Below are positions 10,615-23,713 of a stretch of 53,475 nucleotides of DNA, piece after piece. The stretch is from a virus. The DNA lies in the IMG/VR virus record IMGVR_UViG_3300028388_004078, positions 1 through 53,475 of that record. One strand, given 5' to 3'. The translations under genes and the position numbers were made by a program. How positions within the stretch are numbered: the stretch's first letter is position 1; each line of letters begins with the position of its first letter. The notes under the pieces were generated by a model that did no database searches, had not been told where the DNA came from, and saw only the letters and a program-made list of their open reading frames with translations.

Positions 10615-10622
10615 ACGAGGAT

Positions 10623-10712: not shown

Positions 10713-10713
10713 A

Positions 10714-10789
10714 TGGTACTCCCGACCGGACTCGAACCGATACCACTAACCTTATGAGGGCCGCGCTCTACCAATTAAGCTACAGGAGC
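10714..10789 (-). tRNA. tRNA-Met(CAT), elongator or Ile2 type
   Basis: Acceptor GCTCCTG/CGGGAGT, D arm GCTT/GAGC, anticodon loop CTCATAA (CAT), normal short variable loop, encoded CCA. Its 5' end overlaps the last 10 bases of the HNH gene at 10780-11190. Whether C34 is modified to read ATA cannot be seen. Confidence 0.82.
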
Positions 10790-11190: not shown

Positions 11191-11201
11191 GTTACGTCCT
11201 A

Positions 11202-11292
11202 TGGCGGATAGCCGAGGACTTGAACCCCAGACCCCTCCCGAGGCCCACATCGCTTTCGAAGCGAGTCGGCGCGCCTGTCCGATTGATTATCC
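11202..11292 (-). tRNA. tRNA-Ser(CGA)
   Basis: Type II tRNA, acceptor GGATAAT/GCTATCC, G73, encoded CCA, long variable arm, anticodon loop TTCGAAA (CGA). Fourth serine tRNA; GGA, GCT, TGA and CGA together cover all serine codons. Confidence 0.88.
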
Positions 11293-11298
11293 ATTTGT

Positions 11299-11376
11299 TG
11301 GTACCCGAGGCGGGATTCGAACCCGCAAAACCCATCTTTTGAGGATGGTATGCTATTCCCTTTACATCGCTCGGGC
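11299..11376 (-). tRNA. tRNA-Leu(CAA) with short variable loop
   Basis: Acceptor GCCCGAG/CTCGGGT, D stem ATGT/GCAT, anticodon stem CCATC/GATGG with loop CTCAAAA (CAA), variable loop only GTTTT, T arm GCGGG/CCCGC, encoded CCA. Leucine tRNAs normally have a long variable arm; this one is class I. Confidence 0.82.
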
Positions 11377-11383
11377 AAAATAA

Positions 11384-11461
11384 TGGTACCCCCGGTGGGA
11401 CTCGAACCCACAAAACCCACCTTTTAAGGGTGGTATGCTATTCCACTTACATCGCGAGGGC
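11384..11461 (-). tRNA. tRNA-Leu(TAA) with short variable loop
   Basis: Same body as the CAA gene beside it: D arm with ATGT/GCAT, anticodon stem CCACC/GGTGG with loop CTTAAAA (TAA), variable loop GTTTT, encoded CCA. The shared body shows the three adjacent leucine genes arose by tandem duplication. Confidence 0.82.
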
Positions 11462-11471
11462 ATGATTGAAT

Positions 11472-11549
11472 TGGTACCCGAGGGGGGACTCGAACCCCCA
11501 AAACCCAGCTTCTAAGGCTAGTATGCTATGCCAATTACATCGCTCGGGC
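11472..11549 (-). tRNA. tRNA-Leu(TAG) with short variable loop
   Basis: Third member of the tandem class I leucine set: anticodon stem CTAGC/GCTGG with loop CTTAGAA (TAG), variable loop GTTTT, acceptor GCCCGAG/CTCGGGT, encoded CCA. Confidence 0.82.
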
Positions 11550-11556
11550 ACAGAGC

Positions 11557-11757
11557 TTAGCTGTATTCCAGCGCTCCATGTTCTTCGGCTTGGGTGAGAA
11601 AGCGCTCAATCACACCCATTGCAAGCTGTACCTGTTCGACTTGTTTTGGATCAGACAGGATTTCCTCCGGCTTGATGCGCCCCCCATTGAATAAATCGTA
11701 ATAGGGGTCATCAGAAATGACGACATCTGCGTCGTCGTTAAATTCGAACGGCTTCAT
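11557..11757 (-). CDS. Small acidic hypothetical protein
   Basis: A 66-residue protein (MKPFEFNDDADVVISDDPYYDLF...) with GAGGA before the ATG. The N-terminal half is acidic and the C-terminal half is a predicted helix (DPKQVEQVQLAMGVIERFL). It lies between a class I leucine tRNA and tRNA-Leu(GAG). No family recognised. Confidence 0.5.
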   Translation of the reverse strand: MKPFEFNDDADVVISDDPYYDLFNGGRIKPEEILSDPKQVEQVQLAMGVIERFLTQAEEHGALEYS

Positions 11758-11779
11758 TTCATTCCTCGTCTATGTTTTG

Positions 11780-11862
11780 TGCGCAGGGAGGTACTTGAAC
11801 CCTCACGACCTCTCGGACACCGCCCCCTCAAGATGGCGCGTCTGCCGTTCCGCCGCCTGCGC
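11780..11862 (-). tRNA. tRNA-Leu(GAG)
   Basis: Class II leucine tRNA: acceptor GCGCAGG/CCTGCGC, long variable arm, anticodon loop TTGAGGG (GAG) closed by a stem with one A-C mismatch. CCA is not fully encoded (ACA follows), unlike most of its neighbours. Confidence 0.75.
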
Positions 11863-11864
11863 AT

Positions 11865-11938
11865 TGGTTGTCCTGAGAAGAATCGAACTTCTATCTAACG
11901 ATTATCAGTCGTTTGCTCTACCGTTGAGCTACAGGACA
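11865..11938 (-). tRNA. tRNA-Ile(GAT)
   Basis: Acceptor TGTCCTG/CAGGACA, anticodon stem AACGA/TCGTT with loop CTGATAA (GAT), T arm GAAGT-type with TTCGATT, encoded CCA. Confidence 0.88.
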
Positions 11939-11973
11939 GCTATTTTTAGTAGTCCATACTGACTACTATGAAA

Positions 11974-12047
11974 TGGTAGTCCGCCGAGGTATCGAACCCC
12001 GTACCCACGCTCATCAGGCGTGTGCCTCACCTTTTGACCTACGGACC
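11974..12047 (-). tRNA. tRNA-Ile(GAT), second copy
   Basis: Acceptor GGTCCGT/GCGGACT, anticodon stem CACGC/GCGTG with loop CTGATGA (GAT, with G37 instead of A37), encoded CCA. Different body from the first isoleucine tRNA. An 8-bp hairpin (11947-11968, TAGTAGTC) separates the two. Confidence 0.75.
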
Positions 12048-12054
12048 ATGAATT

Positions 12055-12129
12055 TGGAGCGGAAGGAGGGTAACGCTCCCTCTTATCTTGATTGGCAACC
12101 AAGCGCATTTACTTCTATGCTACATCCGC
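12055..12129 (-). tRNA. tRNA-Gly(GCC) with odd T loop
   Basis: Acceptor GCGGATG-type, anticodon stem CTTGG/TCAAG with loop TTGCCAA (GCC), encoded CCA. The T stem GAGGG/CCCTC closes a loop AGCGTTA instead of the usual TTCRANY, so the standard T54-A58 and G18-U55 contacts are changed. Confidence 0.75.
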
Positions 12130-12545
12130 ATGTGCTGGCACCTATTAGATACCCAGCGACCTTTCACGGGACCCTCACGTAGCCAACGCTTTGGGTAGGT
12201 CCACGGAGGGTTGGTCTTCAACGCTCACCCCGGCTAGAGGCAAACTTCAACCAGTGCGCTTATCCGTGCCACACATTCGCCGGTGTGCGTTATCCAACTA
12301 CGTTCCAGACCTTCGCGACGGCCTTTTCCGAACCTCGGCACACGCCTTTGAGGTGGTCTAGCGTTTACAAGCACCGGCACAAAACTTAATACGCGCCCGG
12401 CGTGCTCCGCTTTCACACCAAACTGGGAGGGATTTGCTACGCTGGCTCCCTCGGGCCTGCTACACGCTAACCATGGCGAGGCACGACGATATTACGGTCG
12501 CATCCGCCTCCGTACGACCCGGAAGAACGGTTTCTCCCCGAAGGG
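12130..12545 (-). ncRNA. Long structured RNA between two glycine tRNAs
   Basis: About 415 bp with no credible gene, in the same transcript direction as the tRNAs. On the minus strand it forms many hairpins: CCC-TTCG-GGG near its 5' end, GGTCG/CGACC, GAGGGA/TCCCTC and CACAC/GTGTG. An 83-bp part (12334-12416) recurs nearly unchanged in the 3' end of the peptidyl-tRNA hydrolase gene (6978-7060). RNase P RNA was considered but its conserved 5' motif is absent. Candidate large phage RNA of unknown class. Confidence 0.5.
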
Positions 12546-12549
12546 ACTT

Positions 12550-12625
12550 TGGAGCGGATACGGGGATTCGAACCCCGACCATCAGATTGGAAATCTGTTA
12601 TGCTACCGTTAAACACCATACCCGC
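12550..12625 (-). tRNA. tRNA-Gly(TCC)
   Basis: Acceptor GCGGGTA/TATCCGC, anticodon loop TTTCCAA (TCC), T arm CGGGG/CCCCG with TTCGAAT, discriminator T, encoded CCA. Confidence 0.88.
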
Positions 12626-12656
12626 AATTAGCACCGACACTCTCGTGTCAGTATAC

Positions 12657-12737
12657 TGGCACCCACGGAGGGACTCGAACCCCCATTTTCATCCAGTTAC
12701 CTTACTCATGGTTCGTAGCCATGGGGGTTACGTGGGT
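12657..12737 (-). tRNA. Unusual tRNA-Arg(ACG) lacking a normal D arm
   Basis: Acceptor ACCCACG/CGTGGGT (7 bp perfect), G73, encoded CCA, T arm GGGGG/CCCTC with TTCGAGT, and a perfect anticodon arm CATGG/CCATG with loop CTACGAA (ACG). Between acceptor and anticodon arm there are only about 8 nt, too few for a D arm, while about 22 nt lie between anticodon and T arms. The 5' acceptor strand overlaps the 3' end of the SLOG gene at 12728. Confidence 0.6.
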
Positions 12738-13084
12738 ATGTCTTCTGCGTCAATAAGCTCGACGCCAGCTTCGCGGGCAAGCCGCATCATGTTGGCTGTG
12801 CCGCGTCCGCCGGAAAAAGCAACGCATAGGTCCGGCATCTTGAACGCAAGCATCCGTGAATTACGGGTACAACCGTCTTTGTTTCCATTGGCATCCCACA
12901 GTGCTTCCATAGCAACTGGTTGAATACCACGTTTCTTTGCCCAACGATGTGCCATTTGATCGGCACCGGCTGCATCACCATGCATTAGGAAGGTAAACTT
13001 CCGCTCAGCATGAAGCTTGTCGAGCACGGAGAACATCTCTCGCTGGTTGCGGTAATCTTTGCCGCCAGTAACCAATACGATCAT
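12728..13084 (-). CDS. SLOG/DUF2493 (YspA-like) nucleotide-binding protein
   Basis: The 118-residue product from the ATG at 13084 (GGAGGG upstream) shows the YspA/DUF2493 pattern: VLVTGGKDYRNQREMF at the N-terminus, FLMHGDAAGADQMAHRWA, then RNSRMLAFKMPDLCVAFSGGRGTANMMRLA. The GG-K/R-DY, HGxAxGAD and GGxGTA-M motifs form a Rossmann-like SLOG pocket that binds nucleotides or ADP-ribose-type ligands. Its stop codon lies inside the 5' end of the unusual tRNA-Arg gene. Role in the phage unknown. Confidence 0.8.
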   Translation of the reverse strand: MIVLVTGGKDYRNQREMFSVLDKLHAERKFTFLMHGDAAGADQMAHRWAKKRGIQPVAMEALWDANGNKDGCTRNSRMLAFKMPDLCVAFSGGRGTANMMRLAREAGVELIDAEDIPT

Positions 13085-13099
13085 AATGCCCTCCATTGT

Positions 13100-13173
13100 T
13101 GGCACGGGTGACGGGAATCGAACCCGCCTCAAAGCGTAGACAGCGCTTCTTCGTCCCAGACGAATACACCCGC
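13100..13173 (-). tRNA. tRNA-Asp(GTC)
   Basis: Acceptor GCGGGTG/CACCCGT, anticodon stem AAGCG/CGCTT with loop CTGTCTA (GTC). Position 37 is T where a purine is expected. Encoded CCA. The reading frame of a broken HNH gene runs through its 5' half. Confidence 0.78.
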
Positions 13174-13504
13174 ATGTGTTTCTCTATGGCAGTTTGCGTA
13201 CAGAAGTATGCATTTGTCTAGTTCTTTTTCTACCTTGTCCTAAGAACGATTTATGCCTCGCGCATCGATCCCGAAGTCTTTTTCTTCTGAATCTATGTGA
13301 TGAAAATCAAGGGCATCATAGCACTTGTCATAACCACAACGTTGGCACTTTCCGCCCTTCTTTTCAATGGCCTTCTTTTTATGTTTTTGCTGCGGTTTTT
13401 ACCCACTCAGTGTTACATGCGCGGCACCGCCATCTTTTGTCTGTTCTAAGGACAAACAAAGTCTTTCCGTGTTTCTTACAGCCCCTGAATTCTTCTTTGG
13501 CCAT
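13129..13504 (-). pseudogene. Broken HNH endonuclease
   Basis: From the ATG at 13504 (overlapping the stop of the gene before it) the frame reads MAKEEFRGCKKHGKTLFVL...KTAAKT and stops. After skipping one A in a run of five it continues KKKAIEKKGGKCQRCGYDKCYDALDFHHID...ELDKCILLYANCHRETH, the full HNH core. A TAG stop interrupts it between NRS and DKVEKELDKC. Two lesions make this a decayed homing nuclease unless both are errors. The remaining frame extends into tRNA-Asp. Confidence 0.75.
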
Positions 13505-13815
13505 CACGCTTCTTCTGGGATATCTCCCAAGTCAGTCACACCGAAGTGTGCGTAGAAATCTCTCAGTTCACGCTCGTCAATACAGAAAGTGTACCAACGA
13601 ACTTGACCAGTGTATTGGAACTGGTCTCGAAGGCTCATTGCTGCACCAGCAACAATGTCCGGGTTTTCCCTGATCCAGTCAGCATGCTCCGCGCATTCCA
13701 ACATGGTTCCATAGCGTGCCTCGTGGCCCGCCCACACACAATGGAACGGGGGTGCTGGCGACATTTCTCCCGCACTCATCGCGGTGCAGAATGCTACGAT
13801 TGGAACTAAACCCAT
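13504..13815 (-). CDS. Small, possibly exported hypothetical protein
   Basis: A 103-residue protein starting at 13815 with GAAGGA upstream. The first 18 residues (MGLVPIVAFCTAMSAGEM) are hydrophobic and could be a signal peptide without a basic N-terminus. The rest contains AGHEARYGTMLECAEHADWIRENPDI and TGQVRWYTFCIDERELRDFYAHFG. The TGATG overlap couples it to the broken HNH gene. No family recognised. Confidence 0.5.
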   Translation of the reverse strand: MGLVPIVAFCTAMSAGEMSPAPPFHCVWAGHEARYGTMLECAEHADWIRENPDIVAGAAMSLRDQFQYTGQVRWYTFCIDERELRDFYAHFGVTDLGDIPEEA

Positions 13816-13867
13816 TATGCTTCCTTCGATTTTTGGAGGACCGAACTGTCGTTCGATCTCGTAGAGA

Positions 13868-13956
13868 TGGAGGACCGGGTGGGATTCGCACCCACGACGA
13901 GGCATGCGCCTACCGGATTAAAAGTCCGGACCATCGACCACTTCGGATACCGGTCC
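13868..13956 (-). tRNA. Type II tRNA with Lys anticodon (TTT)
   Basis: Acceptor GGACCGG/CCGGTCC with U73 and encoded CCA, identical in these parts to the CTT gene at 9377. Anticodon stem CCGGA/TCCGG with loop CTTTTAA (TTT). The variable region forms a clear AGGC/GCCT stem of 17 nt, so it is class II. T loop begins TGCGAAT instead of TTCGAAT. Confidence 0.75.
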
Positions 13957-14124
13957 TTACAGACTAGCTTACGCTGGTCCCAAGTGCCCAAATAAATTGG
14001 GCGAGGTGGTCTCCGACCGCCCCGCCCGTTCCGCCTATTGACGTTTACGCGTCAACGTCAGGCGAACCCGGTAAGGCGTGGTAGACCACGAATTCGATCA
14101 TGTCCCAAAAGTCGTTTCATCGTG

Positions 14125-14469
14125 TCACTCCATATCTACGGGGACCAACCAGTACCCGTTGTTTCTTGTTTCACTTGGCGTGGCTATTGTCCAGCCCATT
14201 TCCGCCAATCTTTCTTTTCTCTGCCTAATCATCACCTGAATCGTTGTAACAGGGTCAGAAGGCATCCGCGTTTTATCGTATTCGTATTCGATATACGCGG
14301 CTTCGCAGAGTTCCGTGATGCTGAGACCTCGCCGTGCGCGGCGAGCTTCCAGCAGAGCAGCCAAGATATTTGCATAACGCCCTTCAAACTTGCCCAAAAC
14401 CCATTCGGGGCTTATTCGATACCGTGTGGGCCTTCCACACGTTGGACAGTATAGGTCTTCGTCAGTCAT
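14125..14469 (-). CDS. Zinc-ribbon plus winged-helix regulator-like protein
   Basis: A 114-residue protein. The N-terminus has a CPTCGRPTRYR zinc-ribbon half-motif. The C-terminal 50 residues (SDPVTTIQVMIRQRKERLAEMGWTI...RNNGYWLVP) match the recognition-helix and wing pattern of OmpR-type winged-helix DNA-binding domains. The start has no strong ribosome-binding site. A possible phage transcription regulator; targets unknown. A short frame follows it but is too small to call. Confidence 0.5.
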   Translation of the reverse strand: MTDEDLYCPTCGRPTRYRISPEWVLGKFEGRYANILAALLEARRARRGLSITELCEAAYIEYEYDKTRMPSDPVTTIQVMIRQRKERLAEMGWTIATPSETRNNGYWLVPVDME

Positions 14470-14580
14470 GGCAACCCAAATTAGGTGCGGTTTTTACCAG
14501 ACCGCAAACTGGACCGAAACGAGATCCTAGAGGATCAATCGTTGTATACCCGACAACGGTTTGTCTGTCAAGGTATTTTT

Positions 14581-14658
14581 TGGCTCGGGTGGAGGGTCTC
14601 GAACCCCCGACACGCAGACGTTAACAGCATCCGGCTCTACCAACTGAGCTACACCCGA
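14581..14658 (-). tRNA. tRNA-Asn(GTT)
   Basis: Acceptor TCGGGTG/CACCCGA, D arm GCTC/GAGC, anticodon loop CTGTTAA (GTT), T loop TTCGAGA, encoded CCA. Confidence 0.86.
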
Positions 14659-14685
14659 ACAATTCGGATACCCGCATGAACTTCT

Positions 14686-14760
14686 TGGTGGACCGCCGGG
14701 GAATCGAACCCCGACTACCCGCTTGCAAAGCGGGGGTGCTCCCGTTATCACTAGCGGCCC
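14686..14760 (-). tRNA. tRNA-Ala(TGC)
   Basis: Acceptor GGGCCGC/GCGGTCC, anticodon stem CCCGC/GCGGG with loop TTTGCAA (TGC), T arm CGGGG/CCCCG, encoded CCA. A 130-nt leader separates it from the promoter at 14890-14918. The acceptor lacks the usual G3-T70 pair of alanine tRNAs and has G2-C71 and G1-C72; the G-T pair lies elsewhere in the stem. Confidence 0.85.
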
Positions 14761-14889
14761 TTTTTGCCCAACCCCGTGTACTTTGGAGCAAGGACTTGTC
14801 GGCTTTTTTGGAATGCCGACCAACACATCACCCGAAGGGTATCTCAACTTGCTTCGGTTGCGCGGCATATCAACGCGGCCAATTATTCC

Positions 14890-14918
14890 TGACTATCATA
14901 AACGGAGTCAGTTGTCAA
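14890..14918 (-). promoter_or_regulatory. GANTC-containing promoter before tRNA-Ala/Asn
   Basis: TTGACA, 17-bp spacer, TAGTCA on the minus strand; the spacer contains GACTC three bases after the -35 element. It would transcribe the leader, tRNA-Ala and tRNA-Asn. Confidence 0.55.
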
Positions 14919-15433
14919 GGACTATTTTCGAAATGATCCTCTGGTAGGATAATGAATGGGACCCACGGAGAAATCGCAGGCGGCGCACCGCCTACTGCGT
15001 CTGGATAGGTAACCGTGACCCGAAAACGCGCGTTACCTTGCTCCACATTCGGGTCGATATAAAACTGATAACTCATGTTGAAAGTTCCGACAGGAAAAAT
15101 TACGCCGGAAACAGACAGCGGGGAATCGTGATACAAGCCGTCACCGTTTGTGATGACCCCAATTACATGAGGTTGTCCACAATCATCGCGATGTTTTTCG
15201 ATATCGTTCCAATAGATCATAGCCCACGCTCCCGGAGGTGTATCAGTCGCGCGGTGCCCAGAGCGCGGAAACGTGACGCACGGGCCTCTGGATTCTGCCT
15301 GTACGCGGGTGGTAATATATTCTTCTATGCGCGGCTCTGCGAGCCACAAGAAAACGCCTAAAACCGCCGAAACAGCGGCAACAGCCGCTGGAAAATGTTT
15401 ACAGAAATAAACAATTTGTGAAAACACAGACAT
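14915..15433 (-). CDS. Single-pass membrane-anchored hypothetical protein
   Basis: A 172-residue protein with one N-terminal membrane segment (AAVAAVSAVLGVFLWLA) and a soluble part rich in strands that ends PWVPFIILPEDHF. The ATG at 15433 overlaps AGAGGA too closely; the GTG two codons later is better spaced and may be the real start. A near-ideal promoter (TTGACT, 17 bp, TATAAA) lies at about 15482-15506. The soluble domain is probably outside the cytoplasm. No family recognised. Confidence 0.55.
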   Translation of the reverse strand: MSVFSQIVYFCKHFPAAVAAVSAVLGVFLWLAEPRIEEYITTRVQAESRGPCVTFPRSGHRATDTPPGAWAMIYWNDIEKHRDDCGQPHVIGVITNGDGLYHDSPLSVSGVIFPVGTFNMSYQFYIDPNVEQGNARFRVTVTYPDAVGGAPPAISPWVPFIILPEDHFENSP

Positions 15434-15533
15434 TCCTCTTCAGTTTTAATTCATCGGGGGAACTGTCGGTAATTTTTTATACCATGCGTGTCATATAAAG
15501 TCAACACAACACGGCACACTCGGATCAAATAAT

Positions 15534-15609
15534 TGGTGCGCGCGGGTGGGATTGAACCACCGGCCTCTGTCGTGTCAGGACAGCGCTACTACCGCTGAGC
15601 TACGCGCGC
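15534..15609 (-). tRNA. tRNA-Val(GAC)
   Basis: Acceptor GCGCGCG/CGCGCGC, anticodon stem CTGTC/GACAG with loop CTGACAC (GAC), T arm CGGTGG-type with TTCAATC, encoded CCA. Confidence 0.87.
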
Positions 15610-15615
15610 GCGTAA

Positions 15616-15691
15616 TGGTACCCGGTGAAGGAATCGAACCTTCTCTGTCACGACTTGTAAGGACGCCGCTCTACCGGTGAGCTAACCGGGC
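15616..15691 (-). tRNA. tRNA-Val(TAC)
   Basis: Acceptor GCCCGGT/ACCGGGT, anticodon loop CTTACAA (TAC) with one mismatch in the stem, T arm GAAGG/CCTTC, encoded CCA. It begins at the base after the stop codon of the gene at 15692. Confidence 0.85.
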
Positions 15692-16024
15692 TCAGTCGTC
15701 TAACAAGCGGACGACCCGAAAATTTGCCCCCGGCATCCACCGATGGGCGGTTCTCATAACCCGCCGATCATGCAGCATTGGAATGAGTTGTTCTTCCTGA
15801 GACGGGCGAAGATACGCCCGACCATTGATGTCATAGTACCGATCACCGAGACGCGTGTAGACGTGACCGTCCAGTTCGCAATACCACGGCTCGGCGTCTG
15901 GAAACGCGGCCTTGAGTATCTTGTAGAACTCGAAGCAAGCGCCTCGGGTGTAGACGGTCACTGCGCCGGGGAAACTGTTCCGTATGGCGGTGATCAGCGT
16001 CTCAGGGGACGATGTTTCTGCCAT
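15692..16024 (-). CDS. Conserved phage hypothetical protein
   Basis: A 110-residue protein starting at 16024 inside the 3' end of the methyltransferase gene. FPGAVTVYTRGACFEFYKILKAAFPDAEPWYCELDGHVYTRLGDRYYDINGRAYL is a pattern I recall from phage and proteobacterial hypothetical proteins: a conserved GxC, WY and GHVYT-x-GDRYYDI-x-G. The Cys, His and Asp arrangement hints at a papain-like fold, but this is speculative. Third gene of a coupled operon. Confidence 0.6.
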   Translation of the reverse strand: MAETSSPETLITAIRNSFPGAVTVYTRGACFEFYKILKAAFPDAEPWYCELDGHVYTRLGDRYYDINGRAYLRPSQEEQLIPMLHDRRVMRTAHRWMPGANFRVVRLLDD

Positions 16025-16613
16025 AGAATGCCGGGGCTCGCGTGTTGGCTGCACGGGCGTCGAAGTGATACCATGCGGCGTTGTCCTTGCCGGTCTGCCC
16101 GGTGCCCTGAAACCACTTGACACGTCCGATAGAGACGATGTGCGTGCAGTACCGAAGGTAGGGCTCCGCTTGGACCGTGTGTGCCCAGTCAGCGTCGAAA
16201 AGGAACCACGTAGGCGCAATGCTCGCGCAATGCGCAATCAATCGGTGCAGGATGTAATCGTTTTTCTTGTCGCGCTCCCACGGCGGGTTCGTAATGATCA
16301 TGTCAATGTGATGTGCTTTGAGGTCACGTTCTGTGATCTCAAACGCATCTCTTTCGTCCACGTCATCACGCCATGCGCCGTCGAAATGGATGTCTGCTGT
16401 CCGGCGTGCCCCCTCGGGGCCGATGTCGGACAAGAGCCTCGCACGACCGTTGGTGTGGTTTTCAACGTGACAGGCAAGACGACCGTCTCCGGCGCAAGGC
16501 TCAGCAAAGAAGAAGCCACCCTTGGGCAGAAAAGAAACCAGTGGAAGAAACGCCGCTTCGGGCGTGAAGTATTGGCTCTTTTCCAGCCGGTCGAAGTCGG
16601 ATCGCTTGCCCAT
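16002..16613 (-). CDS. N6-adenine DNA methyltransferase-like protein
   Basis: A 203-residue class I methyltransferase. Motif I is FAEPCAGDGRLA (SAM binding), and motif IV is MIITNPPWERD (NPPW, catalytic for adenine N6). SQYFTPEAAFLPLV near the N-terminus resembles the YFTP segment of N6 enzymes. The short length leaves little room for a separate target recognition domain. The ATG overlaps the stop before it (TGATG). It may protect phage DNA from host nucleases; the target sequence is unknown. Confidence 0.8.
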   Translation of the reverse strand: MGKRSDFDRLEKSQYFTPEAAFLPLVSFLPKGGFFFAEPCAGDGRLACHVENHTNGRARLLSDIGPEGARRTADIHFDGAWRDDVDERDAFEITERDLKAHHIDMIITNPPWERDKKNDYILHRLIAHCASIAPTWFLFDADWAHTVQAEPYLRYCTHIVSIGRVKWFQGTGQTGKDNAAWYHFDARAANTRAPAFYGRNIVP

Positions 16614-16810
16614 CAGCCGTTGATCCCCACGTAAGATTCGATCACTTCACCGTTTTCGTTGGTGATCGTGTGCTTCCGTACGGAATAGACCTGCATCCCG
16701 TGATCGCCGTCATAGTTGGCGATGCGTACGGACATGTCGCCAGCGTCTTCCATCCCTGCTAGAACTTCTGTAAGGCCGGAAACGGTCATGGCGTTCGTAT
16801 TGAGTGGCAT
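16613..16810 (-). CDS. Small hypothetical protein
   Basis: A 65-residue protein (MPLNTNAMTVSGLTEVLAGM...) with GGAGC before the ATG. It has an N-terminal helix, then MSVRIANYDGDHGMQVYSVRKHTITNENGEVIESYVGI as a beta hairpin pair. First gene of the coupled operon 16810-15692 with the methyltransferase. No family recognised. Confidence 0.55.
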   Translation of the reverse strand: MPLNTNAMTVSGLTEVLAGMEDAGDMSVRIANYDGDHGMQVYSVRKHTITNENGEVIESYVGING

Positions 16811-16873
16811 GTAAGCTCCTGTTCCATCAGATATGCCCGTATAGCACAGTTTCTCGTGAAATGCAAGTGGATA

Positions 16874-16960
16874 TGGTGGAAAGCGCATGAATTGAACCTG
16901 ACCCGGTCAGACCGGAACGGGGTTACAGCCCGCTTACGTCACCAGACGCTGACACTTTCC
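16874..16960 (-). tRNA. tRNA-Tyr(GTA)
   Basis: Type II: acceptor GGAAAGT/GCTTTCC, anticodon stem GCGGG/CCCGT with loop CTGTAAC (GTA), variable arm CCGG-TCTGA-CCGG, encoded CCA. The T stem pairs poorly although the loop TTCAATT is normal. Confidence 0.8.
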
Positions 16961-16961
16961 G

Positions 16962-17508
16962 TTAGATATGTGACCAGACTTTTCGGTCTCTGATCATGTA
17001 GATGTAGGAGTGGTGGACCCCAAATTCTTTTGCGATGTGTGAGAAAGGTCGGCTTTCCTCGATCTGCTCGCGTATAGCGTATATGTCTTGGACAACCGGG
17101 CACGTGGATTTTTCTTGCCTCTGTGATCGGCTCCTGTGCGGCTGGCCCGTCCTTTTACGGCCATATCCCGCATATTGTCATAATGGTCCCCCACACTCAA
17201 GTGCTCCGGGTTACAGCACAGACCGTTGTCACATGTATGCATCACCAGCAGTGCGCCGGGGTCAATTCCGTTATGCAGGAAGTAAGAAATCCGGTGAGAC
17301 GACACAGTTTTGCGAGAGTTTGGAAGCTTGATGTGGCCGTATGAAATATCGCAACTATTACTGGTCTGTCGTGCGCCCTGCCATTCCCAACATTCCTCGG
17401 GGGGACCGTATGTCTATTTTTGACCAAAAAACGCTCAGATAGGCTGTCGATCTGGGAATCTGTCAATAAGTCCAGTCTCGTGCTCCCGCGAACAGTATTG
17501 TCTGACAT
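16962..17508 (-). pseudogene. Broken HNH homing endonuclease
   Basis: Three frames together encode a complete free-standing HNH nuclease. The N-terminus MSDNTVRGSTRLDLL...RHTVPP breaks in a run of six C; then ECWEWQGARQTSNSCDISYGHIKL...SHRISYFLHNG, VMHTCDNGLCCNPEHLSVG (the HNH core) and NPRARLS; then, after a second shift, VQDIYAIREQIEE...IAKEFGVHHSYIYMIRDRKVW, the typical C-terminal helix-turn-helix. Each break needs one added base. It sits between tRNA-His and tRNA-Tyr and is either decayed or mis-sequenced. Confidence 0.8.
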
Positions 17509-17522
17509 AAGATTCTCTTTTG

Positions 17523-17594
17523 TACCGGGCAGGGGACTCGAACCCCATCCGCCTCATTCACAGTGAAGAATGCAACCCTTACACCTTACCCGGC
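17523..17594 (-). tRNA. tRNA-His(GTG)
   Basis: Acceptor GCCGGGT/GCCCGGT, anticodon stem CTTCA/TGAGG with loop CTGTGAA (GTG), T arm ATGGGG/CCCCT with TTCGAGT. CCA is not encoded (ACA follows). The D arm is shortened. Confidence 0.75.
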
Positions 17595-17614
17595 ATATTC
17601 ACGCCGGAATCAGG

Positions 17615-18583
17615 TCATCCGGCGCGAACGATGTCTTCATGGACCTCTGACACGAAAGAATCCATCCAATCGTAGTCAGGGGCCTCGCGGAGGGGCGAAT
17701 TTTCTCCGATTCCCTCCAAAATAGCGATTTTTTCGTAAAAAACGTCCAAAATGCGGTCCATATCGACGTTTCCAGCCCGAATTTCGAGTAAAAAGTCCCG
17801 ATTCCGCGCCGGAAACGTGATTTTTCCGGTCTGGAACAGTTCGATGCCTTCGTCAGCGATGCGAACCGCATGGTACAGCGCTTTCCAGTCAGCACCATCC
17901 GATTCTTGGGCGTTTTGGGAGCGTTTCCCTGCCTCGTTGACCGGCTTGCTGTAGACCTTGAGAGCTTCCTTGCAGGAAATGCCCATCGGGACCTGACGGG
18001 AGTAGACATCGAGATATTCGAGTGTCGAACCGTCCGGTTGCGGCTTCGGAATGATCTGCACGCCTTCGACTTTGGACAGCGCCTCAGTGACCTCCCAGAC
18101 CTTGGCTTTGTCGTTTGGCGCAGATGCGAAGATTTCACACACCGCCATGAACGTTCCGAGGCGCTTTCCACGCATCGAGTAGCGTACCGCCTGCCCTTTA
18201 CAGTAACCAGCGAAGGCTTTCGTGTTGTGAGACACGATTTTGTCGCGATTCGCGAGGACTTTCATCCAGATTCCGTTGTAGGCCACCTCCCTATAGTGCC
18301 CATGATCCACGCCGTCTGCCACGAAAAGCATCTCGACGGGGATCGTTTGCATGTCGGAAGCAAGTTTCAGGAACCTTTGGAGGGTGAAGCTCACGGTGTC
18401 AACGTCATCAGCACCGTTGGTGGATGTCATGGACCCGGTTGATTGGCTGATAACGGGTTTGCCGCGTCCGAGCAGGATTTCAGGCTTCGAAGGCAGGTGC
18501 ACTGCCTTGTAGTCTTTGTCCGAATCGGCGTTACTGGTCCCGTACAGGTGAGAGCCAGCGAGGCATCTGAAAATCTCTGTCAT
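17615..18583 (-). CDS. RlaP-like nucleotidyltransferase
   Basis: A 322-residue protein beginning MTEIFRCLAGSHLYGTSNADSDKDYKAV: GS-x4-GT and DSDKDY form the catalytic site of polymerase-beta-type nucleotidyltransferases of the RlaP family (PF10127). ALYHAVRIADEGIEL further on matches the family's helical C-terminal domain. Bacterial RlaP-type enzymes are linked with RNA repair gene sets; phage copies are common. With an RNA ligase and a receiver-like cyclic-phosphate protein elsewhere in the window, a role in mending cleaved tRNA is plausible but not shown. GGAG is placed well before the ATG. Confidence 0.75.
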   Translation of the reverse strand: MTEIFRCLAGSHLYGTSNADSDKDYKAVHLPSKPEILLGRGKPVISQSTGSMTSTNGADDVDTVSFTLQRFLKLASDMQTIPVEMLFVADGVDHGHYREVAYNGIWMKVLANRDKIVSHNTKAFAGYCKGQAVRYSMRGKRLGTFMAVCEIFASAPNDKAKVWEVTEALSKVEGVQIIPKPQPDGSTLEYLDVYSRQVPMGISCKEALKVYSKPVNEAGKRSQNAQESDGADWKALYHAVRIADEGIELFQTGKITFPARNRDFLLEIRAGNVDMDRILDVFYEKIAILEGIGENSPLREAPDYDWMDSFVSEVHEDIVRAG

Positions 18584-18641
18584 GGCTCCCTCCTTCGTTG
18601 TTCTGTGGTTGTATGACAGGGACCGGAGCCCCTGTCAAGTG

Positions 18642-20777
18642 TCATGCGTCTGCGAGAACCGCCAAGATTTCGTCCTTCTGGTCCCGGATCGCCTCGACCG
18701 TAGCCTTCGGCGCAGCCGGATCGTCAGACCCTGCGATGGAGACGATGTCACCAAACGAGGGGCGGTAGTCCCGGTAGGTCAGGAAGTACCGCATGATGTC
18801 CTTGAGGTCCGCAGCCTTGCTGCGCACGTTGTTGTGTCGGCCCCAGTTACCGTGCAGGTCGAGGTAGACCATGTAGCCGGTTTCCAGATCGAGGATCGCC
18901 GGAGAGGTGTTCCGAGTCTCGCTATCGAGCGAGAGCTTGGTTTCCACCGTCGAGACCTCGAAGTGCTTTCCGGTCTGGCCGTCGCGGATCATGAGACCAG
19001 CGAAGCACGGGAACGTGTCGAACGTCATGCCCGAGAACACGTTGGCGTTCATCAACACGTAGCGGATTCCAGCCTTGCGGGCCTTTGCCACGTCGATGTC
19101 GATGTATTCCGCAGCGCCCCGACTGCCGTTGAGGATGTCGCCCGAGTGCACAGCGTAGTTGCCCTGACGAAGGCTCATGTAGGAACAGTCGCCTTGGCGG
19201 TTCAGGTCGGCGTCGTAGAAGACCGCTGACATGTCCACGTCACACGATTCCTTCCAGTGAAGGAAGAACCGAACCGTGTCGTCATTGGTGAAGTCGAGCT
19301 TGACCCGATCCCCACGCGACGTGCGCACATCCGTGTCCGAGGCCGAGCGGTTGCCCGCCGGTACGAAAACACCGAATGCTTCTTCCGGGACATCCCGGCT
19401 GAACGGAAGCTTCCCAGCAAGACGGCTGTGTAGACTTGCGTCCAACAGGTGCGTCAAGCGCGGGTCGATCCGATCAGGTGCACGATCCGACGCCATGATG
19501 GTACCGTTCGGCAGCATGTGGAAGCGCTTGTCGTGCTCCACAGTCCGTGTGAGGTGCGTACGAAGCTGTAGAAGCTTCCCCGCGTCCACGGTGTCGAACG
19601 CGCCCTTGGCAGCGCTCAGGAGCGCGCTCATGTCCTTGGAGGACGCGAGGCGGCTGAGTTCCGTCATGCGGCGTGCGAGCACGCCCGGACGATCCTTTGC
19701 GAGAGCAATCTTGCCCGCGACATCGGCTGCAGCGTACTTGCTCTCCCACGACTTCAACCAACCCGTACGAAGGTCCATCAACGCCGCGTAGGCGTTGGGT
19801 GCACGCTTCTCGAACGAGCGGATTCGCACGTGCGATGCGAGGCGCTTCCACGGCTCTGCATGGCGCAGGAAATCGGTTTCGTGGTCCGTGTTGCCACGAA
19901 CGAGAACCGCTTCCAGAATGTCCATCACAGCCTTCGCCTGACTGGTCGTCAGGCGGAAACGCGGCGGCGTCTTGAGCGACAGGTCCGCCTCCTGCGTCAC
20001 GGTGCGCCCGTGAATGCCGGTCCACGACTTCCCGACCTTGTGGCGGCGGACACTGCCGGACAGGTGCACGGCGAGGCGCAGCACGTCAGTCACGGAGTTG
20101 CACGCAGCCGCGTACTGGTCGTTCGTCATCATGTCCCACACAAGCGGAAGCTTTTCGCGGAACTTGATCGACGCCAGCGCCGAAGTCGGCAATGCGCCGG
20201 TCGAAAGCGCCCACTTCATGAAACGCGTTTCGGCGGACGAGAACGGCTCCAAGTTGGACATCATCGCCACCGCCTTGTCGGTGATGAACGATTCGTCCGC
20301 CAGCTTGATGAACCGCACCTTCCGGCGACGGTTCCCATCTTCATCCTTGAAGCGGAGCGTGAATTCGGCGTCAAGGTCGGTGTCGCCGCCCAGCCAGTCG
20401 TTCTGGAACCCCGTGAACGGGTCAGCGCCGAACTCTGCCGGGTCATGGTCGAACTGGAAGCCTAGATGCGTCATGAGCCAGCCGAGGAAGCGCACGTCGA
20501 ACGGCAAAATCTGATGGTTCGGGAACCGGCGGTAAAGCGGAGACACTTGGTCCATGCCGCTCAGGTTCTTGTTCAGGGCCGAGCCCAGCCGCTTGAATGC
20601 AGCGCCGCGCTGTGTCGGCGTCAGCTTGTCCAGCGCCGCCAGAAGATCGGGCGTCAGAGCGTAGCGGTAATCGTATGCGAGCGCCGCGATATCCATGACG
20701 GATGCTTCGACGGTGCTGTTCGACCCATCGAGGTGGAATGCCCCGAAAATGGAAAGAATATCTGCGTCAACGTTCAT
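18642..20777 (-). CDS. Large protein with C-terminal TerD-like domain
   Basis: A 711-residue protein, the longest in the window. Residues about 455-650 (GDRVKLDFTNDDTVRFFLHW, DVDMSAVFYDADLNRQGDCSYMSLR, AVHSGDI, AAEYIDIDV, RYVLMNANVFSGMTF, FAGLMIRDG, PAILDLETGYMVYLDLH) match the TerD-related half of MXAN_6230/SCO0854-type proteins. The N-terminal 440 residues are helical and unassigned; no RING finger is present. TerD domains bind calcium and occur in stress and phage-defence-linked systems. A GANTC promoter lies at 20875-20903 and AGGAGG before the ATG. It is separated by 58 bp from the nucleotidyltransferase gene, and a TTGACA promoter lies in that gap. Confidence 0.65.
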   Translation of the reverse strand: MNVDADILSIFGAFHLDGSNSTVEASVMDIAALAYDYRYALTPDLLAALDKLTPTQRGAAFKRLGSALNKNLSGMDQVSPLYRRFPNHQILPFDVRFLGWLMTHLGFQFDHDPAEFGADPFTGFQNDWLGGDTDLDAEFTLRFKDEDGNRRRKVRFIKLADESFITDKAVAMMSNLEPFSSAETRFMKWALSTGALPTSALASIKFREKLPLVWDMMTNDQYAAACNSVTDVLRLAVHLSGSVRRHKVGKSWTGIHGRTVTQEADLSLKTPPRFRLTTSQAKAVMDILEAVLVRGNTDHETDFLRHAEPWKRLASHVRIRSFEKRAPNAYAALMDLRTGWLKSWESKYAAADVAGKIALAKDRPGVLARRMTELSRLASSKDMSALLSAAKGAFDTVDAGKLLQLRTHLTRTVEHDKRFHMLPNGTIMASDRAPDRIDPRLTHLLDASLHSRLAGKLPFSRDVPEEAFGVFVPAGNRSASDTDVRTSRGDRVKLDFTNDDTVRFFLHWKESCDVDMSAVFYDADLNRQGDCSYMSLRQGNYAVHSGDILNGSRGAAEYIDIDVAKARKAGIRYVLMNANVFSGMTFDTFPCFAGLMIRDGQTGKHFEVSTVETKLSLDSETRNTSPAILDLETGYMVYLDLHGNWGRHNNVRSKAADLKDIMRYFLTYRDYRPSFGDIVSIAGSDDPAAPKATVEAIRDQKDEILAVLADA

Positions 20778-20874
20778 TTGGTCCTCCTTTCAAACACCGA
20801 GAGAGCGGGGAGCTTTTGGTCAGCTTGAAATGCAGAGATTAGAAGTATGCCCCTGCCATGCGCTCGGTTATTCC

Positions 20875-20903
20875 GTGATACGTGATTCGGCTCTTATTGT
20901 CAA
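20875..20903 (-). promoter_or_regulatory. GANTC-containing promoter before the 711-residue gene
   Basis: TTGACA, 9 bp, GAATC, 3 bp, TATCAC on the minus strand. This 9/5/3 spacer layout recurs in at least nine other promoters of the window. Confidence 0.65.
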
Positions 20904-20955
20904 CACGCTTGTGTTCAACACCAGTGTATTGAAGACATAGCCGCCAGCTTTTTCC

Positions 20956-21031
20956 AGACAACTGCTCTACCACTGAGCTACACCCCGGCACTGCAGGGAT
21001 GGTGGGACTCGAACCCACGACCTGTTGTTTC
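20956..21031 (-). tRNA. Probable circularly permuted tRNA gene, anticodon uncertain
   Basis: In transcript order the 3' half comes first: ACAAC (3' anticodon stem strand), AGGTC, GTGGG-TTCGAGT-CCCAC (T arm), CATCCCT. After 7 nt the 5' half follows: CGGGGTG, TA, GCTC-AGTGGTA-GAGC (D arm), GTTGT (5' anticodon stem strand). The two anticodon-stem strands are perfectly complementary and the acceptor strands pair at six of seven positions. No T arm lies where a normal gene would need it. The cut falls in the anticodon loop, so the anticodon cannot be read safely. Two unrelated tRNA fragments remain possible. Confidence 0.5.
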
Positions 21032-21175
21032 ATACGTTAGAAGTATGCTGTTGCGATGCGGTCTTCAAGACACTGATGATGTGTGAAGGAGCGAAGCGGG
21101 TGGCTTTGCTCTCTACCAATGATGAATTAGAAGTATGCCTGCCCATGCGGCTCCCTCGCAAATCATCAGTGTAAG

Positions 21176-21527
21176 TTGGGGGCTTCTGTTGCTAGGTGCC
21201 CCCGGACCCCTTGGACTTACGCCGCGATGGCAAGCGCCGGAGCGCGGTCATCGTTTGCGACGGAAGCCTCGATTGCGATCATGTCGATTGCAGTTGTGAT
21301 TTCGAATCGAAGTTCTTGCCCTGATAACGGTAAGGCCAAGCCGACACGCCACTTCACTTATTGTTCCTGTCGATCCTATTTCGCCCCCATCAAAACCGCA
21401 CCTCATTTTGAGCGTGCCATCGGCTATACCGTGTGACCCGAACTTAGGATCGGGTGCGGTTATGGTGGAGGCGCGGGGTACCGCCCCCCGGTCCAGAAAA
21501 CCATCCGCTTCGCAGATGAACGTGTGT
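21176..21527 (-). ncRNA. ssrA: Two-piece (circularly permuted) tmRNA
   Basis: The gene has the permuted order of alphaproteobacterial tmRNA. First comes the acceptor RNA: T arm CGGGG-GGCGGTA-CCCCG, acceptor CGCCTCC, A and encoded CCA ending at 21463. Then an intervening segment whose AACCGCACC and GGTGCGGTT pair to bring the ends together. Then the coding RNA, starting at 21388 with GGGGGCGA and GGATCGACAGG; GGGGGCG pairs with the acceptor strand. The tag frame (21217-21258) reads ANDDRAPALAIAA then TAA. The helix GTAAGT/ACTTAC closes the 3' part. The promoter is at 21534-21562. It should rescue stalled ribosomes and tag products for proteolysis. Confidence 0.92.
21217..21258 (-). CDS. tmRNA proteolysis tag peptide
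   Basis: Resume codon GCA, then 12 more codons and TAA, encoding ANDDRAPALAIAA. The AND-start and the small hydrophobic end are typical of alphaproteobacterial tags; the terminal AIAA differs from the common ALAA and could alter ClpXP or SspB recognition. Confidence 0.9.
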   Translation of the reverse strand, partial: ANDDRAPALAIAA

Positions 21528-21533
21528 AGGGAA

Positions 21534-21562
21534 GACATAGACGATTCGAGCGGCTATGTCAA
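21534..21562 (-). promoter_or_regulatory. GANTC-containing tmRNA promoter
   Basis: TTGACA, 9 bp, GAATC, 3 bp, TATGTC on the minus strand, a few bases upstream of the acceptor RNA of the tmRNA. Confidence 0.75.
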
Positions 21563-21564
21563 GC

Positions 21565-21843
21565 TCAATATGCCGTTGGAAACGTCTGAATCGGAGAAGT
21601 CGTGTTCTCCAACGTGACCGTGTCGACTTCAACGCGGTACACCTCGACGTAGAGGATCGAAATCTGATCCACACGAACAGTTGCCGCGCCATTGTTGATA
21701 TCGACCCAATCCTCGGTCAGCGGTGTCCGCCGCCGGGTCTGCGCCTGAGAAAGCGCCGCGACGAGGCTGGCGACATTGGCTGTCTGGTGGATGGTGAGAA
21801 CGTAGTCGCTAATCAGGCCACGTACAACGGCGAAGTATTCCAT
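21565..21843 (-). CDS. Small hypothetical protein upstream of tmRNA
   Basis: A 92-residue protein with AAGGAAG before the ATG. It begins MEYFAVVRGLISDYVLTIHQTANVASLVAALSQ (helical) and continues with WVDINNGAATVRVDQISILYVEVYRVEVDTVTL, a run of strands. It ends just before the tmRNA promoter. No family recognised. Confidence 0.5.
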   Translation of the reverse strand: MEYFAVVRGLISDYVLTIHQTANVASLVAALSQAQTRRRTPLTEDWVDINNGAATVRVDQISILYVEVYRVEVDTVTLENTTSPIQTFPTAY

Positions 21844-21869
21844 CGCGCTTCCTTAGATGTGGGTTCTGC

Positions 21870-21915
21870 CCAGCCGCGTCATGTGTTCGTTTTCATCGCC
21901 ACATGACGCGGCTGG
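21870..21915. terminator. 16-bp hairpin between a tRNA and a protein gene
   Basis: A perfect 16-bp inverted repeat (CCAGCCGCGTCATGTG, 14-nt loop) separates tRNA 21922-22006 from the gene at 21565-21843. No T run follows on either strand, so an RNA processing or stabilising role is as likely as termination. Confidence 0.55.
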
Positions 21916-21921
21916 TGAAAT

Positions 21922-22006
21922 TTGCGGGGGCAGGATTCGAACCTGCGTGATCCTTGTTCAGGAAACGGGTTATGAGCCCGCTGAGTGGCCTCTACTCTAC
22001 CCCGCA
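21922..22006 (-). tRNA. Type II tRNA with CAT anticodon, initiator-like stem
   Basis: Acceptor TGCGGGG/CCCCGCA, D stem GAGT/ACTC, anticodon stem GCGGG/CCCGT with loop CTCATAA, T arm GCAGG/CCTGC. The three stacked G-C pairs next to the loop are the hallmark of initiator tRNA. Yet an 18-nt variable region with a TCCT/AGGA stem makes it class II. CCA is not encoded. Confidence 0.7.
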
Positions 22007-22022
22007 ACAAAATACCCATAAT

Positions 22023-22087
22023 TGGTCGGCGTGGTGGGGAGTCGAACCCCTTGATGCATCACTATCCTCAAGCCCCGAGGCACGCCG
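22023..22087 (-). tRNA. tRNA-like gene without an anticodon arm
   Basis: A 65-nt element with perfect acceptor CGGCGTG/CACGCCG, A73, encoded CCA, D-like arm CCTC/GAGG and T arm GGGG-TTCGACT-CCCC. Only about 15 nt, which fold as TGAT-GC-ATCA, lie where the anticodon arm should be. It may be a decayed tRNA or a chargeable mimic. Confidence 0.5.
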
Positions 22088-22118
22088 AAAAATGGTCCGC
22101 GCAAGCACGAACAAGTAT

Positions 22119-22194
22119 TGGTCAGGGCGGTGGGTCACGATCCCACGGCCTCCGGATTCCAAATCCGGTACTCTACCAACTGAGCTACGCCCTG
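22119..22194 (-). tRNA. tRNA-Pro(TGG)
   Basis: Acceptor CAGGGCG/CGCCCTG with the C1-G72 pair typical of proline, anticodon stem CCGGA/TCCGG with loop TTTGGAA (TGG), encoded CCA. Confidence 0.88.
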
Positions 22195-22197
22195 ATG

Positions 22198-22554
22198 TTA
22201 CGTTGGGGCGCCTTTCGGCGACGTGATTTCTTCGTCCAGTGTTTGGAAATTCGATCCGCTGGCGACCAGACAGGTCAGGCCGTTTGGTGTCGTGACCGTG
22301 ATCGTCCATGTGCCGGTTTCTTCGTTGCCCCAGACTTCCACGATGGCGGTGGCGGTGGAACCGCCGCTGCCACTCAGGCCAACTGCTCGGCGCGCTTCTT
22401 CGTAGCCGGGGCGAGTACCGGAAGGAGCGTCGATTGGGCCGCTCAGGCGTGCCTCGACAAGCTGCCGTGGGGCACAGTTCTGTTGCTGGGCATCAGCGGG
22501 GTGCGATGCAAAAACGGCCAGCGCCAGAGCGGGCGCCGCAAGAAACTTCCACAT
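22198..22554 (-). CDS. Exported small protein with signal peptide
   Basis: A 118-residue protein from the ATG at 22554 (AAGGA 7 bp upstream). Signal peptide WKFLAAPALALAVFASHPADA with a likely cut after ADA. The mature part has two cysteines (NCAPRQLVEARL; GLTCLVASG) that could pair, and strands TAIVEVWGNEETGTWTITVTTPNG. Proteins of this layout are common in Rhodobacterales. It probably acts in the periplasm. A GANTC promoter lies at 22728-22756 with a leader of about 170 nt. Confidence 0.65.
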   Translation of the reverse strand: MWKFLAAPALALAVFASHPADAQQQNCAPRQLVEARLSGPIDAPSGTRPGYEEARRAVGLSGSGGSTATAIVEVWGNEETGTWTITVTTPNGLTCLVASGSNFQTLDEEITSPKGAPT

Positions 22555-22727
22555 GTTCATGTCCTTTTCGACTTTGGTGCTCAATCGCACCACATAAAAG
22601 TTACGATCCGGTTTCCTCTCAAACCAAAAAAGTCACGCCCGTGTTGTGTTCTTGCTTGGCCGCTCCTGCGGAGCACGAGACAACTTGCGTAATACAATAC
22701 CATATTTTCTTGGAACTTGTTGAACCC

Positions 22728-22756
22728 TATGTAGGTGATTCGGACGCCAGTGTCAA
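22728..22756 (-). promoter_or_regulatory. GANTC-containing promoter
   Basis: TTGACA, 9 bp, GAATC, 3 bp, TACATA on the minus strand, upstream of the exported protein gene at 22198-22554. Confidence 0.7.
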
Positions 22757-22821
22757 GAACTTTTTTGGCCCACCACGCGATGGTGACTTACGTTCCTCCC
22801 GCCCGCAGAGGAAACCGTGTG

Positions 22822-22895
22822 TGGAGACGTGACCCGGAGTCGAACCGGGATTGACGGAGTTGCAGTCCGCCGCGTAGCCATTCCGCCATCACGTC
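22822..22895 (-). tRNA. tRNA-Cys(GCA)
   Basis: Acceptor GACGTGA/TCACGTC, U73 (a cysteine identity base), anticodon stem GCGGA/TCCGT with loop CTGCAAC (GCA), encoded CCA. Confidence 0.88.
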
Positions 22896-22896
22896 A

Positions 22897-22968
22897 TGGT
22901 CGCGCCACCCGGTAACGATCCGGGCCGGGTTCTTTATGAGAGAACCTTGATCACCATGATCTGGCGCA
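22897..22968 (-). tRNA. tRNA with CAT anticodon (Met or Ile2)
   Basis: Acceptor TGCGCCA/TGGCGCG, D arm GATC/GATC, anticodon stem GTTCT/AGAAC with loop CTCATAA (CAT), T loop ATCGTTA instead of TTCRANY, encoded CCA. Third CAT gene of the array. Confidence 0.75.
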
Positions 22969-22973
22969 GAATT

Positions 22974-23050
22974 TGGTAGCGCATACGGGTTTCGAACCCG
23001 TTTCTCTGCCTTGAAAGGGCAGCGACCTTCGCCAAGAAGTCCAATGCGCC
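22974..23050 (-). tRNA. tRNA-Glu(TTC)
   Basis: Acceptor GGCGCAT/ATGCGCT, anticodon stem CTGCC/GGCAG with loop CTTTCAA (TTC), T arm ACGGG/CCCGT with TTCGAAA, encoded CCA. Confidence 0.86.
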
Positions 23051-23057
23051 ATGAATT

Positions 23058-23133
23058 TGGTGTGCCGGGAAGGAATCGAACCTTCATCTTCGGGACTTCA
23101 ATCCGATGTGGGCACCAGCATCACCACCGACAC
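23058..23133 (-). tRNA. tRNA-Phe(GAA)
   Basis: Acceptor GTGTCGG/CCGGCAC, anticodon stem TCGGA/CCCGA with loop TTGAAGT (GAA), T arm GAAGG/CCTTC with TTCGATT, encoded CCA. It forms the 3' end of the transcript that carries the long structured RNA before it. Confidence 0.78.
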
Positions 23134-23575
23134 ATAAAACGCAAACTTGAGATTTTCAATCCCACTTGCCGTGGGCTACTCTCGTGGACCCCAATCCAAC
23201 GGCTCGACCCGACACATCTTTTGGTGTTGGGGCACCGCCAGACATATCCTCGACTTCCGCTTAAAACTGGACATCGGGTGGCGCGATTGGGCACGCCATG
23301 CCGCTGCCACCACGAACCTTACGGTTCTCGTCTGGATGAAACAATCTAGGTGCGTGCTCGATAAGGGTCCCGTAGGACAAATACCGTTTCGTGCTCAAAA
23401 TGATCGAGCACGCGCCAAGATTGTTCCCCAAAAGGGACGCCGGTCATCGGATAACCCCCGTTGGGAGGTCCCTATCGGCGCACATTGCCATATTATTTAT
23501 CACAGCTATCGCCGTGGCAACGTTCAGAACACCAAATTGTCAAAAAGCGTGTCAATGCAGAGCATCAACTTCCCT
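23134..23575 (-). ncRNA. Long structured RNA upstream of tRNA-Phe
   Basis: About 440 bp without a protein gene, starting just after its own promoter (23579-23607) and running into tRNA-Phe. It is dense in helices: CGAACC-GTAA-GGTTCG with a GNRA tetraloop, CCCAC/GTGGG, CCCCAA/TTGGGG, and an 11-bp pair GCGTGCTCGAT (23352-23362 with 23403-23413). The 3' arm of that pair can also pair locally (23390-23396 with 23406-23412), so two forms are possible. Position beside phage tRNAs recalls GOLLD and ROOL RNAs; class not proven. Confidence 0.6.
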
Positions 23576-23578
23576 AGT

Positions 23579-23607
23579 CAGATAACTGATTCGGGGTGGT
23601 TTGTCAA
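23579..23607 (-). promoter_or_regulatory. GANTC-containing promoter of the long RNA
   Basis: TTGACA, 9 bp, GAATC, 3 bp, TATCTG on the minus strand, just upstream of the structured RNA that ends in tRNA-Phe. Confidence 0.7.
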
Positions 23608-23631
23608 GCGCTAAGTACCGCTTCTAATTTT

Positions 23632-23713
23632 TGGAAGGTCCTACAGGATTCGAGCCCGAGTCACTGGATTGAAAGTCCAATATCCTTGACTAGGCGAAGG
23701 CATAAAAGGACGC
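23632..23713 (-). tRNA. tRNA-Glu(TTC), second copy
   Basis: Anticodon stem TTGGA/TCCAG with loop CTTTCAA (TTC), D stem CCTT/AAGG with a long loop, T loop CTCGAAT, U73, encoded CCA. The acceptor pairs at six of seven positions. First gene of the array in transcript order. Less regular than the other glutamate tRNA. Confidence 0.6.

Follow-up and report, generated by a model that had tools for sequence, protein, structure and literature searches.

Organization of the tRNA Array and Its Upstream Region

The window analyzed in this study, i.e., the complete virus record of 53,475 bases, encodes the terminase large subunit and the major head protein, and contains a tRNA array at positions 5742-23133 (minus strand), in which 30 tRNA genes were predicted by ARAGORN. 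Every RNA gene is located on the minus strand, including an alpha-type permuted tmRNA inside the array (21174-21566, minus strand), identified by the models RF01849 and RF04321. The region 23134-23607 (minus strand), which is considered here, is located directly upstream of the tRNA-Phe (gaa) gene (23058-23133, minus strand; ARAGORN; Rfam, 49.4 bits), this being the first well-scored tRNA past the leader described below.

The nearest named relatives, as judged from shared tRNA DNA and gene order, were the Ruegeria phages RpAliso and V10, Roseobacter phage DSS3P8, Rhodobacter phage RcXuper, Phaeobacter phage MD18, and phage DSS3_MAL1 (MAL1). Together with the window and two further records (L201 and L202), they form the phage group referred to in the following. 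Two scans for relatives by means of the 711-aa neighbor protein yielded a single record (L005) that featured no tRNA within 22 kb and no boxA, and was rejected.

The original prediction described 23134-23607 as a gene-free, structured RNA possessing its own promoter. A promoter-like site matching the consensus at 9 of 12 positions, TTGACA-N17-TATCTG, was indeed found at 23579-23607 (minus strand), ending 30 nt before the boxA, and a TTGAC-N17 site precedes the boxA at varying distance in seven out of eight leaders examined. A stricter consensus scan did not report the site at 23579-23607, the required T at position 6 of the second hexamer being missing. For the minus strand of 23134-23635, a folding energy of -188.3 kcal/mol was obtained (z -4.24), a value reached by none of 100 shuffled sequences, and the plus strand of the same stretch folds less strongly (z -3.5). 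The reading as a structured RNA with its own promoter beside the phage tRNAs was supported, with covariation as reported below for 23431-23551. The term 'gene-free' is a fair description, but is left unproven by a TTG-started plus-strand frame of 155 codons at 23147-23614; this frame had no match in PHROGs, and tblastn yielded none at E ≤ 1 in 50,697 phage records.

A Conserved Leader Element at the Head of the Array

The first indication of a conserved element was a weak blastn match of 25 nt between the window and RcXuper, located immediately before the first tRNA of the latter. Inspection of the relatives revealed a boxA, which in the window reads GCTTTTTGACAATTTGG (23532-23548, minus strand) and differs by one mismatch from a 17-mer, GCTCTTTGACAATTTGG, found upstream of host rRNA genes. 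It is the sole site at ≤3 mismatches in the whole window. The 17-mer or a variant of it (≤2 mismatches) occurs once per genome in all nine group members, always at the array head and on the tRNA strand. No mismatch was found in RcXuper, V10, DSS3P8, MD18, and MAL1, whereas L201 and L202 contain one each, as does the window, and RpAliso two. The boxA represents the most conserved part of the leader.

In every leader, two adjacent hairpins fold 3' of the boxA. Hairpin H1 (23482-23523, minus strand) was deduced from folds and from covariation in helices 1 and 2, and is composed of an outer stem of 8 bp, an inner stem of 5 bp, and an A-rich 3' bulge of 12 nt containing GAUAAA; its loops vary between all lineages. 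Hairpin H2 (23437-23481, minus strand) features a 6-bp stem around an internal loop, UA / GAUGAC, with covariation in helix 3. The whole conserved element, consisting of boxA, H1, and H2, covers 23431-23551 (minus strand), as delimited by the match of covariance model R1, and heads the tRNA/tmRNA array in nine out of nine phage-group records examined. The distance from the leader to the first tRNA amounts to approximately 300 nt in the window vs. 1 to about 12 nt elsewhere.

Model R1 was trained on MD18, MAL1, L201, and V10 only; the window and RcXuper were kept out of training because MAFFT misaligned their H1. Among the held-out leaders, matches were obtained for L202 (79.1 bits), RpAliso (78.5 bits), RcXuper (54.5 bits), and the window (40.4 bits, E 4.7e-7), the last being the sole match up to E 10 in the 53-kb window. 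Without the boxA, the best match of the window in a 10-kb search space was still found at the same place, but at only 14.5 bits (E 0.029), and RcXuper achieved 21.8 bits (E 8e-4). Covariation between sister leaders, proposed as a check in the original prediction, was detected: among eight distinct sequences (the DSS3P8 leader being identical to that of V10), 12 of 17 pairs featured two-sided changes, and 99.2% of the cells were paired in an alignment fitted to the R1 structure, which favors pairing, with slid controls being 25-40% paired. None of the covariation measures was reached by any of 500 shuffles.

Resemblance to Host rRNA Leaders

The boxA consensus of the phages is identical over 17 nt to some rRNA leaders of Rhodobacterales, from which the window differs by one mismatch. 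The exact 17-mer was found in 112 stretches of bacterial or archaeal genomes, which were classified by script: 33 of them have rRNA on the same strand within 1.5 kb downstream (31 of 110 after subtraction of the two stretches that supplied the rRNA probes), 20 end within 700 nt of the contig end, 59 are unassigned, and none was placed in the class having rRNA at another position of the locus. Among named hosts, the 17-mer is located 314 nt (Phaeobacter) and 254 nt (Thalassovita) before the 16S start. Furthermore, one host leader (L175) has the same C-to-A boxA variant as L201 and L202. Within the host family, only 6 of 149 genomes contain the 17-mer at ≤1 mismatch, some of these six sites not being rRNA leaders, and assemblies of this family rarely include a 16S gene (5 of 41).

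The hairpins were compared as well. In host leaders, the boxA is followed by a different first hairpin (H1') and then by a hairpin with an internal loop, UA / GAUGAU, resembling that of phage H2; a loop of this type follows the boxA in all five host rRNA leaders inspected. A scan for the H2 motif (UAG and CGAURAY with a stem of ≥5 bp) placed it at the leader in all eight phage arrays and in four of the five host rRNA leaders, the fifth having the loop in a bulged stem of 4 bp; shuffled sequences contained 0-0.15 copies on average. Three additional sites appeared chance-like (window plus strand, RpAliso 1108, and RcXuper 6895). Given the relatedness among the hosts, and likewise among the phages, the likeness in H2 is in effect one comparison. 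Host leaders scored approximately 20 bits with R1. Host H1' is unlike phage H1, and its strand GAUAUGUGGGCGG is absent from the phage leaders aligned. Model R2, built from the five host leaders, did not find the phage leaders and gave one weak match (L036), but it is a poor test because its RNAalifold structure pairs the boxA itself.

On account of the boxA match and the recurring H2 loop in host leaders, the phage element appears to be copied from, or to mimic, an rRNA leader. As in the rrn leader with its boxA-Nus site, the 17-nt boxA and an H2-type loop head a long untranslated RNA operon, being placed between a promoter (by consensus) and untranslated RNA genes on the same strand. Unlike the rrn leader, the phage element precedes tRNAs and tmRNA, has H1 in place of H1', and lacks the host GAUAUGUGGGCGG strand.

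In viral contigs, the exact 17-mer was present in 54 stretches; a same-strand tRNA was found less than 2 kb away in only six of them, and in these it was not always located downstream. By visual inspection, about 30 of the 54 represent a repeated boxA-like 5'-UTR motif of another phage group (e.g., L006, L007, L009, L037, and L044), situated about 10 nt before the ATG of several different genes. A wider use of the boxA before tRNA arrays is weakly supported for these reasons, and five tRNA-bearing phages outside the group yielded neither a boxA at ≤2 mismatches nor an R1 match below E 6.

The Long Stem and the Stretch before tRNA-Phe

Between the conserved element and tRNA-Phe, a long stem at 23338-23427 (minus strand) was identified, composed of 10 bp, a 1x1 mismatch, 2 bp, a second 1x1 mismatch, and 11 bp. 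The fold of 23336-23430 is unusually stable (z -6.2). A stem with this 1x1-2bp-1x1 pattern follows the first tRNA-Glu in MD18, MAL1, L201, L202, and RpAliso, and related but non-identical stems occupy this position in V10 and RcXuper. The window has no tRNA between H2 and the long stem, as though a tRNA-Glu had been lost or moved. Further occurrences of the pattern are located in the spacer of the permuted tmRNA (window, 21383-21472, minus strand; MD18; MAL1; L201) and upstream of the 711-aa gene (window, 21074-21168, minus strand; RpAliso; RcXuper). When the distance between the two mismatches was varied in a scan, a gap of 2 gave 21 occurrences vs. 2-9 for gaps of 1 and 3-6, with a gap of 0 giving 16; these counts refer to a geometry that was first noticed on folds and scanned afterwards, and matches in related phages are not independent.

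The long stem is perhaps an RNase III-type processing site, by analogy with rRNA processing as described in PMC10250234. Like the RNase III stems of pre-rRNA, it separates a leader from mature RNAs; unlike them, it is local, its geometry recurs within the phage group, and its cleavage is only predicted. The two mutually exclusive pairings proposed originally for 23406-23412 are both present in the sequence, but the idea of a switch between them was not supported: the long-range pairing is part of the long stem and is chosen in the minimum-energy fold, whereas nothing was found in favor of the short hairpin, and it is the long-stem geometry that recurs in sister phages.

The remaining stretch, 23134-23335 (minus strand), is moderately structured (z -2.2), has no detectable relative, and includes the predicted GNRA hairpin, GAACC-GUAA-GGUUC, which can be read from the sequence at 23314-23327. 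Comparison of 23134-23480 with six sister genomes yielded matches of 13-18 nt only (best E 0.08).

Proposed Role of the Leader and Alternative Explanations

We know of no specific answer to the question of how a long untranslated tRNA array is transcribed past Rho in phages. An array of tRNAs, tmRNA, and short genes such as that studied here faces the same Rho problem as rRNA operons, and the leader is located where an antitermination signal would have to be. Judging from sequence comparisons, we consider it probable (roughly 0.7) that 23431-23607 provides the transcript of the tRNA array with its promoter and leader, mimicking the leader of a host rRNA operon and acting in antitermination. 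rRNA operons load Nus factors through boxA, according to PMC10250234 and PMC4807359, and the former also describes boxA as necessary and sufficient for formation of the rrn antitermination complex in E. coli. By analogy, the boxA of the phage leader, on emerging from RNA polymerase, would load NusB/S10 and other Nus factors, and the modified polymerase would resist Rho and pausing over the approximately 18 kb in which the tRNAs, the tmRNA, and short genes are encoded. The host RNA polymerase would thereby probably read the long, largely untranslated array to its end. H1 and H2 may help to assemble the antitermination complex or may bind a further factor. Cleavage of the long stem by RNase III would then separate the leader from the precursors of the tRNAs, to be matured by RNase P and other enzymes.

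Several alternative explanations have to be weighed against this reading. In lambda nut sites, the boxA is followed by a hairpin, an order also found in the phage leader, and H1 could correspondingly act as boxB for a putative N-type antiterminator encoded by the phage, with its conserved GAUAAA bulge serving as the protein site. Parts of nut sites are described in PMC10250234. The differing H1 loops leave the leader without a conserved boxB loop, and both the boxA and the loop of the second hairpin match rRNA leaders, so that a nut-like site appears unlikely.

The original prediction itself had considered a large ornate RNA of the GOLLD or ROOL type, and a free-standing structured RNA acting in trans, be it GOLLD-like, ROOL-like, or otherwise ornate, would agree with the strong folding and with the GOLLD RNAs in four sister arrays. 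These were detected with RF02032 in four of eight records searched (V10, DSS3P8, MD18, and MAL1), directly upstream of the tmRNA (L188:7420-7883 in MAL1; L004:8577-9010, L187:14340-14807, minus strand, and KT870145 8467-8900 in the other three). The same search, up to E 10, found no GOLLD RNA in the window, nor was one present in RpAliso, RcXuper, and G150, which speaks against a GOLLD identity; ROOL (RF03087) gave no match in the window at E ≤ 10, and none in the control genomes either. Across Rfam, 23134-23607 produced tRNA-like and chance matches only at E ≤ 10. The window leader shares with GOLLD RNA the location in a phage tRNA array, but differs in array position, size, and structure. 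Moreover, the conserved part is 120 nt long, begins with the boxA, and, in the relatives, is followed after a few nt by a tRNA, making a free-standing RNA quite improbable; 23134-23607 is more readily understood as a 5' leader in the transcript of the tRNA array.

Direct binding of RNA polymerase without Nus factors, as by a put-like RNA, would explain two neighboring stem-loops shortly after the promoter. The put RNA of HK022, as portrayed in PMC9378689, is about 70 nt long, forms two stem-loops, and is active without protein factors. The likeness, in which the outline alone was compared, is restricted to the adjacent stem-loop pair near a promoter, whereas the phage leader has a boxA that would be superfluous in that case and yet is its most conserved part; this explanation is more improbable still. 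The least probable is a recombination remnant, i.e., a fragment captured from a host rRNA leader and devoid of present function, which would account for the resemblance to host leaders but conflicts with the compensatory changes keeping the helices as the sequence diverges, and with the boxA being kept in all nine records.

The reading as an rRNA-like antitermination leader offers a testable answer to the question of array transcription, namely that the phage borrows the rRNA leader, and would link phage tRNA supply to Nus-factor control. A more far-reaching version, in which the phage lineage copied the host rRNA leader (boxA and H2), the array came under host ribosomal antitermination, and the 1x1-2bp-1x1 stems additionally constitute a phage-specific RNase III code for cutting the array, including the permuted tmRNA spacer, is proposed tentatively, at somewhat less than an even chance. 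If true, phage tRNA supply would be transcribed like rRNA. A survey of gammaproteobacterial boxA targets states that non-coding RNAs were not considered (PMC5725501). Literature on boxA, antitermination, and phage tRNA, within a coverage that lies mostly outside subscription journals, yielded no work on a boxA in the tRNA arrays of phages. For annotation purposes, R1 provides a model of such phage leaders.

Further Elements of the Array

Additional elements were observed in and around the array. A gene for an RlaP-type nucleotidyltransferase, belonging to an RNA repair family, is located within the array (17615-18583, minus strand). Directly past the tmRNA, a YrlA-like (Y RNA-like) match was found at 20934-21040 (minus strand; 40.1 bits, E 1.2e-6), below the gathering score of 69. 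Upstream of the leader promoter, 23640-23700 (minus strand) represents a weak tRNA-like sequence (20.4 bits, under the cut-off), the 3' part of which is similar to the tRNA-Glu of the relatives. The Rfam tRNA-Sec model matched 6268-6354 (minus strand) inside the array at 50.3 bits (cut-off 47); this label may be wrong, because the tRNA-Sec match of MD18 falls inside a tRNA-Ser called by ARAGORN. In MAL1, ARAGORN called a tRNA-Pyl with the anticodon cta (L188:13412-13485).
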